From Planctomycetaceae bacterium TMED10 (GTDB lineage: Bacteria; Planctomycetota; Planctomycetia; Pirellulales; UBA7805), in NCBI GenBank assembly GCA_002168195.1, contig NHBP01000065.1, positions 37,700-49,149 of the forward strand: a stretch of 11,450 nt of DNA, in the 5' to 3' direction. A model generated the notes under the pieces. The model did not search any database. It was not told the origin of the DNA and saw only the letters and a list, made by a program, of their open reading frames with translations. Below, piece after piece: positions 7,868 through 11,450 of this stretch (the first letter of the stretch is position 1; every line of letters begins with the position of its first letter). The translations under genes and the position numbers were made by a program.

Positions 7868-9787
7868 ATGAGCGACGACATCGGACACTACTGTGGCATA
7901 GCACTCGTTCGCCTTAAAAAGCCGTTAGCCTACTATATGGAAAAATACGGATCCCCTCTTTGGGGATTCAACCAACTCTTTCTGCTCATGGAAAAGCAGC
8001 ATAACCGTGGCCAAGACGGAGCCGGAATCGGTTCCATGAAGCTGAACATGCCGCCCGGTGAAGCGTTTATGTTTCGAGAGAGGAGTACGAGTTCAAAAGC
8101 TCTAAGCAAGATTTTCGGCGGTCAGCAGGCGATCATGGATAAGCTGGCCGATGCGGGATCCGTTAATCCAGACGTTCCAGAAACCATTAAACACCATTTC
8201 GATTATGGTGGTGAAATTTTTCTGGGTCACCTGCGCTATGGGACTTCTGGAGCTTACGGATCGACAACCTGTCATCCTTATTTTCGCAAAAGCAACTGGC
8301 CAGGTAAAAACTTGATGGTGGTGGGAAACTTCAATCTGACTAATGTGGATGCGCTGAACACCAAACTGGTAGAACGGGGACAACATCCGGTCTTTGACAC
8401 CGATACGCAGGCCATTTTGGAGGAAGCGGGATATCATTTAGATGCGTTCAATGACATGCTTTCCGCGGATGCAAAAAAAGCCGATATACCGGGCGGAGAG
8501 CAGGCTCAATGGATTGGGGAACGAATTAATCTGCCAGAGATTTTTCGCAAGGCAGCGATGCATTGGGACGGTGGTTATTCCCTGGCGGGGATTGTGGGGA
8601 ATGGTGACGCTTTTGCCCTGCGGGATCCCCTCGGAATTCGGCCAGCCTACTTCATCGACGACGATGAGTTGGTAGCAGTTGCGTCCGAGCGGGCTCCCCT
8701 CATGACGGTATTTGACAAAGAGCTTGAAGATGTGATGGAGGTCCAACCGGGAACCATCGTAGTCATCCGGTCAAGTGGAAAAGTAACGATCGATCGTTAT
8801 GCCGAAGACCCCGGTCGCCACGCTGGTTGCTCATTCGAGCGAATTTACTTCTCCCGAGGCAACGATGCGGACATCTATTCGGAACGCAAAAAATTAGGCG
8901 CACTACTTGTACCCCAAGTCCTCAAGTCGGTGGGCAAAGATTTTTCGAAAAGTGTCTTCAGCTATGTACCAAACACTGCTGAAAGCGCTTACTACGGATT
9001 CATGGAGCAGTTACGGCAGGTCAGGCGGGCAGAAGTAAAACAACGTCTTATGGATGCTCGCAAAGCACAAGAACTCACTGATGAACTCATCAATGAACTT
9101 GTTATGGACAACTGGCCTAAAGGCGAGAAGATTGCCAACAAAGACATCAAACTGCGCACCTTTATCAGTCAAGAAGCCGGTCGCGCGCAGCTTGTCTCAC
9201 ACGTTTATGACATTACCTATGGAGTGGTACGCGAGGAGGAAGACGCCTTAGTATGTATCGACGATTCAATCGTTCGGGGAACCACACTCAAGCGCAGCAT
9301 CCTTCAAATCCTGGGACGGTCACGCCCCAGAAAACTTGTTATCGCGTCTACTGCTCCTCAGATTCGCTACCCCGATTGCTATGGGATTGATATGTCCGAG
9401 TTGGGTAAGTTTGTTGCCTTCGAAGCAGCAATTGCCCTCATTGAAGAACACGGTTATGAAAATCTGCTTGCGGAGATCGCGGCCAATTGCAGGGAGGCGC
9501 TGAGCGAGGCGCAGCCTACGTGTGTAAATCACGTCAAGCAAGTCTATGAAAAATTTAAGGCGGAAGAAATTTCAGCGAAGATTGCTGATTTGGTATGTCC
9601 TGATTGCTTACGCGGTTCTATCGATGTTGATGTCATCTACCAGAACATCGAAAATCTGCACAAAGCGTTGCCAGATCACACGGGAGACTGGTATTTTACC
9701 GGGAATTACCCGACCCCTGGCGGTTACCGCGTCGTCCACAAAGCCTTTCTCAACTACTACGAGAAAAAAGATTGTCGAAGCTATTAA
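7868..9787 (+). CDS. purF: Long PurF-type amidophosphoribosyltransferase (class II glutamine amidotransferase plus PRTase)
   Basis: By family, PurF makes 5-phosphoribosylamine from PRPP and glutamine, the first step of purine synthesis. The product is 639 residues; typical PurF is about 470-510. The Ntn-type glutaminase domain has Cys9 in HYCGIAL, which would need an 8-residue propeptide removed to become the N-terminal nucleophile. Next come QHNRGQDGAGI (44-54), GHLRYGTSG (120-128) and GNFNLTN (153-159), where PurF normally has NGN. The phosphoribosyltransferase domain carries FERIYFSRG (323-331), the PRPP loop CIDDSIVRGTT (463-473) and YPDCYGID (501-508). Extra sequence sits between 55 and 115, between 380 and 430 and after 585. 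Cys321, Cys504, Cys577 and Cys580 lie near the Fe-S ligand positions of Bacillus PurF. The start is firm: GGAG (7856-7859) is 8 nt before ATG. A paralogous amidotransferase with a different acceptor is the alternative. Confidence 0.85.
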   Translation: MSDDIGHYCGIALVRLKKPLAYYMEKYGSPLWGFNQLFLLMEKQHNRGQDGAGIGSMKLNMPPGEAFMFRERSTSSKALSKIFGGQQAIMDKLADAGSVNPDVPETIKHHFDYGGEIFLGHLRYGTSGAYGSTTCHPYFRKSNWPGKNLMVVGNFNLTNVDALNTKLVERGQHPVFDTDTQAILEEAGYHLDAFNDMLSADAKKADIPGGEQAQWIGERINLPEIFRKAAMHWDGGYSLAGIVGNGDAFALRDPLGIRPAYFIDDDELVAVASERAPLMTVFDKELEDVMEVQPGTIVVIRSSGKVTIDRYAEDPGRHAGCSFERIYFSRGNDADIYSERKKLGALLVPQVLKSVGKDFSKSVFSYVPNTAESAYYGFMEQLRQVRRAEVKQRLMDARKAQELTDELINELVMDNWPKGEKIANKDIKLRTFISQEAGRAQLVSHVYDITYGVVREEEDALVCIDDSIVRGTTLKRSILQILGRSRPRKLVIASTAPQIRYPDCYGIDMSELGKFVAFEAAIALIEEHGYENLLAEIAANCREALSEAQPTCVNHVKQVYEKFKAEEISAKIADLVCPDCLRGSIDVDVIYQNIENLHKALPDHTGDWYFTGNYPTPGGYRVVHKAFLNYYEKKDCRSY

Positions 9788-9853
9788 GCGAATGGTCGTG
9801 CTTGCTGATCGACGTCTCAGAATATCCACTGGCAATGACGACACCGTGGTTTG

Positions 9854-10495
9854 CTACAATCGAATGTACTCAGAGCGAAATATTTTTTTCCCGCTCAATC
9901 TCATCCTACGCTCGAAGTGTGTTTGATAATCCAAATCGTGTGCCGCCTGACTTGGAATGACCTCTTGAGGACCTTGAAGCTGGGCATCTGTTTTTAATGC
10001 GGCAATACCTGCGTCAAACGTTTCTTGAACGTCTGTCCAAAAATGCAAATACCCTCCGCTGATCAAAGTTCGACTCAACTGACCAACGAAATTCTCATTT
10101 AAAAGGCGGCGTTTGTGATGTCTTTTTTTCCACCACGGGTCAGGGAAATAAATGTGGATCGCGGCAAGTGATGCATCAGGGAAAATCTCAGAAAAAACCT
10201 GGCGGGCATCGGCGTGGACAACGCGTGCATTGGCGACTCCCGCACGGGCCAGACGCGAAGCTGCAAAGCGAGCATATTTCAGAGAAATCTCAATCCCGAG
10301 AAAGTTTTTCTGCGGTAGGGCTGTCCCCTGACGTTGGAGAAACAATCCCTTCCCTGAGCCGATCTCGACTTCTAATGGGCAAGACGCAGTGAAAACTTGC
10401 TCCTGATCCCAAGGCTGCGGCAAGCTCTTTCCACTCAATAAATGGGAGGTCAAATCAATTTGGGAATCAACTTTTCCCAGAGCACGGCGTCCCAT
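9854..10495 (-). CDS. trmB: tRNA (guanine(46)-N7)-methyltransferase TrmB
   Basis: SAM-dependent enzyme that methylates N7 of G46 in the tRNA variable loop. The 213-residue product has the Rossmann-type SAM motif VEIGSGKGLFL (43-53), the acidic strand end GIEIS (67-71), VVHADARQV (92-100), the family signature YFPDPWWKKRHHKRRL (116-131), HFWTDVQE (151-158) and the C-terminal QTHFERRMRLSGKKI (191-205), which corresponds to the T-x-(F/Y)-E tRNA-binding segment. The frame also offers TTG at 10498, but the adjacent ATG at 10495 is preferred; GAGG lies 11 nt upstream. It converges with purF (66 bp between the genes) and follows the FabZ-like gene on the same strand by 96 bp, so cotranscription is possible. 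Confidence 0.95.
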   Translation of the reverse strand: MGRRALGKVDSQIDLTSHLLSGKSLPQPWDQEQVFTASCPLEVEIGSGKGLFLQRQGTALPQKNFLGIEISLKYARFAASRLARAGVANARVVHADARQVFSEIFPDASLAAIHIYFPDPWWKKRHHKRRLLNENFVGQLSRTLISGGYLHFWTDVQETFDAGIAALKTDAQLQGPQEVIPSQAAHDLDYQTHFERRMRLSGKKIFRSEYIRL

Positions 10496-10527
10496 CAATC
10501 AAATGGCCTCGCGTTGTTGCTCGTCAT
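10495..10527 (-). CDS. Possible 10-codon upstream ORF coupled to trmB
   Basis: ATG at 10527-10525 opens a frame for MTSNNARPFD, whose TGA stop shares its A with the trmB ATG (TGATG). AGGA stands 4 nt before this ATG. A stop-start overlap of this kind is the usual geometry of translational coupling, but an ORF this short occurs easily by chance and nothing else supports it. Confidence 0.2.
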   Translation of the reverse strand: MTSNNARPFD

Positions 10528-10591
10528 GGGATCCTGATTGAAACTGCACGATTCGACTTACTCTCGTGCCTGAGAATATCGCGCCGTAGGG

Positions 10592-11110
10592 CTAAGTGGG
10601 GCTCACCTCACGAAGGGCATCAGCAGGCAGCGGAATGCCTCGAATGGACCCTTCTACAACGAGATTTTCATTCACAAATCCCATAAAGTCGCAAAGTACA
10701 AGTGCACCTCTGCGAGCTCGCTTCTGCTTACATTGAATTACAAGTCGATCCCCCGGTCGCACCGCGCCGCGGAAGCGGACATTATCCAATCCGCCAAAAC
10801 CGACCATTTCACAGCCAAGAATATCATTCTTCTGCACAAAGTACGAAGCGAGTTGAGCTGCAGCTTCACACATTAAGACACCCGGCATCAATGGCATACC
10901 GGGCATGTGCCCTCGAACCCAAAAATCCTCTAGGCTGGTATCGACATACCCCACAATCGTACGCTGCTCGAAATCTTCAAAAACAACGGCGGTTAATTGT
11001 TCAATTTCAAAACGCTGGGGATTGCATTTGCGAATCGATTCGATATCCGCAATGACGTCGTTATCCACATCGTACATCGAAAATGGAATGAGCGGCTCTT
11101 TGGTTGCCAC
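10592..11110 (-). CDS. FabZ-like 3-hydroxyacyl-ACP dehydratase, hot-dog fold
   Basis: Probably removes water from 3-hydroxyacyl-ACP during fatty acid synthesis, or acts in a related acyl pathway. The core signature GHMPGMPLMPGVLMCEAAAQ (67-86) carries the catalytic His68 and Glu82 and corresponds to the FabZ motif GHFPG-x-P-x-x-PGVL-x-x-E-x-x-AQ. VRFRGAVRPGDRL (111-123) matches the following hot-dog strand. The protein is 172 residues, longer than FabZ (about 145-150). Its N-terminus lacks the usual HRYPFLLVDR segment and has NPQRFEIEQLTAVV instead, so it belongs to a divergent FabZ branch, and a specialised substrate is possible. The start is GTG at 11110, one base after the stop of the basic micro-protein gene; AGAAGGG lies about 12 nt upstream inside that gene. 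trmB follows on the same strand. Confidence 0.85.
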   Translation of the reverse strand: MATKEPLIPFSMYDVDNDVIADIESIRKCNPQRFEIEQLTAVVFEDFEQRTIVGYVDTSLEDFWVRGHMPGMPLMPGVLMCEAAAQLASYFVQKNDILGCEMVGFGGLDNVRFRGAVRPGDRLVIQCKQKRARRGALVLCDFMGFVNENLVVEGSIRGIPLPADALREVSPT

Positions 11111-11111
11111 G

Positions 11112-11210
11112 TTAGGTCTTTACCCTTCTTCGCTTTGATTTGCGTGCCTTGCTATTGGCTGGTCGCTTTCCATGATTCGCTTTTTTTGCGATTCGTCCAG
11201 GTTTTGCCAT
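11112..11210 (-). CDS. Highly basic 32-residue small protein
   Basis: An ATG at 11210 with AAGGA 7 nt upstream opens a 32-codon frame ending in TAA at 11114-11112. The product starts MAKPGRIAKK, continues KANHGKRPANSKARK from residue 10 and ends SKRRRVKT. It has 8 Lys, 6 Arg, 1 His and no acidic residue, so it would bind nucleic acid or sit on the ribosome by charge alone. I do not recognise a named family. The HG/R pattern and Lys-Arg clusters are reminiscent of tiny ribosomal proteins such as bL34 or THX, but I cannot align it with confidence. Its stop is separated by a single C from the GTG of the FabZ-like dehydratase, so the two are probably translationally coupled. The ribosome site, strong composition and gene-to-gene junction argue for a real gene despite its size. 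Confidence 0.75.
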   Translation of the reverse strand: MAKPGRIAKKANHGKRPANSKARKSKRRRVKT

Positions 11211-11387
11211 TTTTAATCCTTTTTAATATTTTTAGGGACTCTTCCCTTTTCAAGAACAGGCCCCGTTGCATGCTCTACTTGGTGACAGAATCTCGATTGG
11301 ATCCGGTCACCTTCCAATACACCTAGATTTTAACAATCGTGTGAATCCAGGAAAAGATCCGGTAAGACCGCCAAGACATTCATTTTT
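11211..11387. other. Intergenic stretch upstream of the basic small-protein gene
   Basis: It contains a 6-bp inverted repeat, GGTGAC (11281-11286) / GTCACC (11306-11311), with a 19-nt loop, and a 14-bp hairpin with arms AGGGA/TCCCT (11234-11247). On the minus strand TTGAAA (11252-11247) is followed 17 bp later by AATATT (11229-11224), a weak promoter candidate. No gene is evident. Confidence 0.35.
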
Positions 11388-11450
11388 TCAATTCTCGCCA
11401 GGGAAATTCAGCGATCGAATTATCGCCTCATACCGCCACTCGAGGCGAAA
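11388..11450 (-). CDS. Possible C-terminal end of an upstream minus-strand gene
   Basis: On the minus strand one frame is open from the window edge for 20 codons to TGA (11390-11388), ending RLEWRYEAIIRSLNFPGEN. The other two frames have stops within 30 bases. The residue mix looks like a real protein tail, and the orientation agrees with the small basic gene and the dehydratase downstream, but so short a piece cannot be identified and may be chance. Confidence 0.35.
   Translation of the reverse strand, partial: FRLEWRYEAIIRSLNFPGEN

Follow-up and report, generated by a model that had tools for sequence, protein, structure and literature searches.

The ribosomal protein bL37 has been described in Actinobacteria (NCBIfam model NF047428; PDB 5o60, 7kgb and 8crx). 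It is placed there in an rRNA pocket of H39, H40, H41/H42, H72 and H89, below the tip of the 5S rRNA and near the peptidyl-transferase centre (PMC5876184, PMC10085706, PMC10618245). A proposal of 2023, set out in a Borrelia paper, derives both bL37 and a shorter uL30 from a longer uL30 (PMC10618245). In the ciliate mitoribosome, the protein mL102 is located between the central protuberance and the L7/L12 stalk (PMC7326499); the plant mL102 (rPPR5) is a different protein that carries the same name (PMC12672651). The arrangement of a ribosomal protein gene with a gene of lipid synthesis is described for E. coli, where rpmF, encoding bL32, is on one transcript with plsX (PMC3896788). No paper on bL37 in planctomycetes, on a ribosomal protein with a KANHGKRP segment or on a bL37m of mitoribosomes was found among the open-access papers searched.

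Identification of the planctomycete bL37 gene

The window, the whole analysed stretch of 11,450 nucleotides, closes contig C1 in the genome G000. Its minus strand contains at 11112..11210 an ORF of 99 nt including the stop codon, which runs from ATG to TAA and encodes the 32-residue protein MAKPGRIAKKANHGKRPANSKARKSKRRRVKT. The gene is assigned on the basis of the ORF list, the match to the family NF047429, conservation in the family and pN/pS. The protein contains eight lysine and six arginine residues and no aspartate or glutamate. The junction of the ORF with the following FabZ-like gene, TAA-C-GTG (11108..11114, minus strand), and a Shine-Dalgarno-like AAGGA (11217..11221, minus strand) were read from the sequence. 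The basic, acid-free ORF with its 14 Lys/Arg and the junction are thus as the earlier note had described them. The AAGGA is also present; its spacing to the ATG is 6 nt, not 7 nt as had been given, and the exact motif is variable among the relatives of the locus. The expectation that gene callers with a cut-off of 90 nt could easily miss the ORF does not hold for that length, since at 99 nt with the stop codon it is not excluded by such a cut-off. A scan of the window for promoters and terminators gave about what chance would give (2 promoters against 1.2 expected and 1 terminator against 1.1), and an Rfam search of the window found no family.

The protein had been regarded as unrecognised. 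It is, however, matched over its full length (positions 1-32 of 32) by the model NF047429 (ribo_Plancto_bL37, '50S ribosomal protein bL37'), a curated NCBIfam equivalog for planctomycetes, with 56.9 bits against a cut-off of 40. No difference from the family was found, and by the curated cut-off the protein is a member of it. The actinobacterial/mycobacterial model NF047428 gave 16 bits for the single sequence, which is under its cut-off of 30, and covered only residues 6-17. Among 20 diverse planctomycete members, NF047429 matched all 20 and NF047428 matched 18 (E up to 1, best 8.2e-5). Searches of the 32-residue protein against Pfam (E up to 1) and PHROGs returned no family. We conclude, with a probability of about 0.9, that the product of the ORF is the 50S ribosomal protein bL37 in its planctomycete form. 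Once identified, the gene is an ordinary one, a tiny ribosomal protein gene that was already known through the NCBI models.

Remote relatives of the protein

Sequence comparison with solved chains led to the same group of proteins. A search of the PDB with the single sequence returned one chain, the Tetrahymena mitoribosomal protein mL102, at E 0.11, and did not find the solved bL37 chains 7kgb_v and 5o60_3 up to E 10. A profile built from 16 planctomycete members gave E-values of 8.1e-5 for mL102 (6z1p_AQ), 1.3e-4 for M. tuberculosis bL37 (7kgb_v) and 6.4e-3 for M. smegmatis bL37 (5o60_3). With the profile A2, which includes diverged members, the values were 6.6e-8 for mL102 and 2.6e-3 for M. 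tuberculosis bL37, and with A3, to which three actinobacterial sequences had been added, they were 1.1e-7 and 6.3e-5. The best plainly unrelated match in the three profile searches was a phospholipase A2 at E 0.29-0.47. By these searches the protein also belongs to bL37 in the wide sense, taken as homology in sequence to the bL37 chains of solved structures. A small mitoribosomal protein, mL184 (PDB 9g6k chain UI, 35 aa), was a marginal match of A2 (E 0.76) and was absent with A3.

The planctomycete and actinobacterial proteins have in common the KANHGKRP segment and the basic stretch that precedes it, and the likeness is limited to about 15-18 residues. Before the segment the planctomycete form is shorter by five residues, and after it there is a basic C-terminal tail of about 15 residues, which is absent from actinobacterial bL37 and partly found in mL102. 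The Tetrahymena protein (PDB 6z1p chain AQ) is alike in the core segment and in the beginning of the tail, corresponding to profile positions 3-29. It differs in being mitochondrial and in its length of 109 aa, with a long sequence before the segment, compared with 32 aa in the planctomycete protein. The suggestion that the protein is ribosome-associated is therefore supported by homology, through NF047429 and through the profile matches to bL37 and mL102. Its description as lineage-specific is correct only in part, since there are relatives in Actinobacteria and in a ciliate mitoribosome.

The protein might instead be a nucleic-acid-binding or assembly factor that acts outside the mature ribosome and merely has the KANHGKRP segment in common with bL37. 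Its strongly basic, acid-free make-up would fit such a factor, as would the tail without a counterpart in actinobacterial bL37. However, the conserved part is the very part that is visible in the solved actinobacterial 50S structures, and the closest match in the PDB is a mitoribosomal protein. We consider a non-ribosomal factor very improbable.

Distribution of bL37

Matches to NF047429 were found in 80 of the 294 sampled genomes of the phylum (60 of the 176 better ones), 31 of them over the cut-off, and the broader profile A2 matched 82 of the 294; as these scans scored at most 26-27 candidates per genome, a miss is no proof of absence. None of 14 control genomes was matched by NF047429. The core AN.G.RP was present in all 20 diverged matches that were fetched. 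Within the order, bL37 was found in 111 of 118 sampled genomes.

When named genomes were scanned for KANHGKRP with GCN or TCN after it, at least 119 loci were obtained. Among those listed, four are labelled actinobacteria (L057, L084, L107 and L119), one is an unlabelled bacterium (L085) and the rest are labelled planctomycetes; further loci may lie in other phyla. Aspartate and glutamate are absent from 109 of the 119 translated proteins of these loci, so the acid-free make-up is usual in bL37 and not fixed. A motif scan of viral contigs gave no match.

Gene order and selection

The gene that follows bL37 in the window (10592..11110, minus strand, GTG start) encodes a FabZ-like dehydratase of 172 aa, which is matched by PF07977 with 78.8 bits, over the cut-off. 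TIGR01750 (fabZ) gave 75 bits, under its cut-off of 155; the protein is divergent for fabZ, yet most of the order contains a match to it that resembles an orthologue. The next gene downstream (9854..10498, minus strand) encodes a TrmB-like tRNA (guanine-N7) methyltransferase of 214 aa (TIGR00091, 119 bits, cut-off 112.65). On the plus strand, 7868-9787 encodes a 639-aa amidophosphoribosyltransferase-like protein with 115.8 bits for purF, against a cut-off of 350, and only weak Pfam glutamine-amidotransferase matches.

Some FabZ-like match is present in 117 of the 118 order genomes. In 108 of the 111 genomes with bL37, the best FabZ-like gene lies downstream of it, with contig and strand in common; in the remaining three genomes (G304, G335 and G386) the two genes are on different contigs. 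The estimated gap in the 108 genomes has a median of 83 nt, and it is at most 300 nt in 104 and at most 10 nt in seven. Six of the seven order genomes without bL37 also gave no FabZ match with an E better than 1e-10. In G350, the seventh, FabZ starts about 55 nt from a contig end. For this reason the absences of bL37 may be assembly gaps.

Outside the order the picture is different. FabZ was found beside bL37 in none of 20 loci of f4, another family of the class, and in none of three further loci of the phylum (about 1.5 kb on either side in both cases), nor in any of 20 diverged loci. Among the motif loci listed, FabZ is at most 600 nt downstream in 64 of 119 (58 of 106 when only loci with 700 nt or more of downstream sequence are counted), and several loci labelled Mariniblastus or Pirellulaceae have no FabZ downstream. 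Since bL37 is kept without FabZ beside it outside the order, the pairing belongs to the order and the protein does not need it. The position ahead of the dehydratase gene, which the earlier note had taken to be fixed, is thus conserved in the order, and the synteny check proposed there gave a positive result in the order and a negative one in f4 and the diverged loci.

The ORF is intact in all ten family genomes, the window's own genome included. Within the genus, 24 of the 28 variable columns fall on the third codon position (p 5e-12 by a hypergeometric test without correction for relatedness), and the summed pS of 0.577 and pN of 0.023 correspond to a pN/pS of 0.041, calculated from 21 non-independent pairs of seven loci. 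Across the order, pN/pS is 0.218 (17 loci). This comparison of synonymous and non-synonymous changes, suggested in the earlier note, bears the coding frame out: the bL37 ORF is a real gene under purifying selection.

The selection data also bear on the possibility that the ORF serves chiefly as a leader peptide or translational coupler, which would allow re-initiation at the GTG of the FabZ-like gene and whose amino-acid sequence would be of little weight. The one-base junction, TAA-C-GTG, is found in the window and in seven of seven loci of the genus, and FabZ follows bL37 nearly throughout the order; re-initiation at the GTG would be plausible. The junction is also present at L037 from a neighbouring genus and not at L038-L040. 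A leader peptide would be expected to be linked to FabZ wherever it occurs and to vary freely in sequence; bL37 was found unlinked in all 20 f4 and all 20 diverged loci, its amino-acid sequence is strongly constrained, and a gap of 10 nt or less is confined to seven of 108 genomes. A leader peptide is therefore very improbable. The claim that the small protein sets the translation rate of the dehydratase likewise found no direct support, as the junction is confined, among the loci examined, to the genus and one neighbouring genus and the median gap in the order is far wider.

A chance ORF, to which the shortness and the composition would not be an obstacle (of the 7864 overlapping 32-residue stretches without a stop in the window, the ORF's own frame included, five are equally basic and acid-free, which makes composition by itself weak evidence for a gene), is ruled out with near certainty by the conserved frame and sequence, seen in the third-position bias, the ten intact family genomes, the curated family match and the occurrence in 111 order genomes, and not by the composition.

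A second copy of bL37 is present in G000 on contig C46, with five synonymous differences and one amino-acid difference. The two contigs are near-identical over 1.5 kb on the FabZ side, and the divergence starts inside the bL37 gene, so the copy is more likely to come from a second strain in the bin than to be a paralogue. The contamination rating of the bin is 7.38%. Aligned with window positions 9615-11450, C46 (L002) agrees at nearly every base as far as about 11150, after which 15 of 90 positions differ (11151-11240); strain mixture, a recombination edge or an assembly branch would each produce such a pattern.

Proposed role of bL37 and the apparent absence of uL30

We propose that planctomycete bL37 is a part of the 50S subunit. 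By homology, the KANHGKRP segment would lie in the 23S pocket of H39-H42, H72 and H89 beneath the tip of the 5S rRNA and would brace H89 beside the peptidyl-transferase centre. The basic tail, which actinobacterial bL37 does not have, would continue along the rRNA. The location and the contacts are thus predicted from the sequence relationship to the solved proteins.

The simplest role of the position ahead of the FabZ-like gene would be to link a gene of translation and one of lipid synthesis to growth, like rpmF with plsX in E. coli. In the rpmF-plsX-fab arrangement, too, genes of lipid synthesis are preceded by that of a ribosomal protein. It differs in the ribosomal protein and in the lipid gene, and co-transcription of bL37 and FabZ, like any translational coupling, is putative. 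The pair adds to the cases in which the gene of a ribosomal protein precedes a fatty-acid gene. This kept place and the likeness to a ciliate mitochondrial ribosome protein are the less expected features of the gene.

uL30 (PF00327) was not found in any of the 294 sampled phylum genomes, whereas 13 of the 14 controls were matched. In a subset of 20 genomes, uL29 (PF00831) was found in all 20 and uL30 in none. In G000, the ORFs that we read from their sequences as uS5 and uL15 (L213, 4119-3619 and 3622-3125, both on the minus strand) share a few bases, and no further gene lies between the two. A literature search on uL30 loss returned only a paper on Patescibacteria; the loss in planctomycetes may already be in print. 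The derivation of bL37 by a split from an N-terminal extension of uL30 is without sequence support, as the profiles matched no uL30-named chain at E-values of 10 or less. The presence of bL37 without uL30 neither proves nor excludes the origin of both from a longer uL30.

The apparent absence of uL30 from the sampled planctomycetes and the basic tail of bL37 are two unexpected points, and a phylum with bL37 and without any uL30 match is one where the proposal of a longer uL30 is testable. As a tentative and rather doubtful extension of the identification, bL37 might be an old ribosomal protein common to planctomycetes, Actinobacteria and, as mL102, ciliate mitochondria. Its tail might enter the space left by uL30, which planctomycetes seem to lack throughout, or extend in the direction of the A-site tRNA, as has been reported of mL102, and so take over part of the work of the lost uL30. 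If this were true, a peptide of 32 residues would partly replace a lost and otherwise widespread ribosomal protein.
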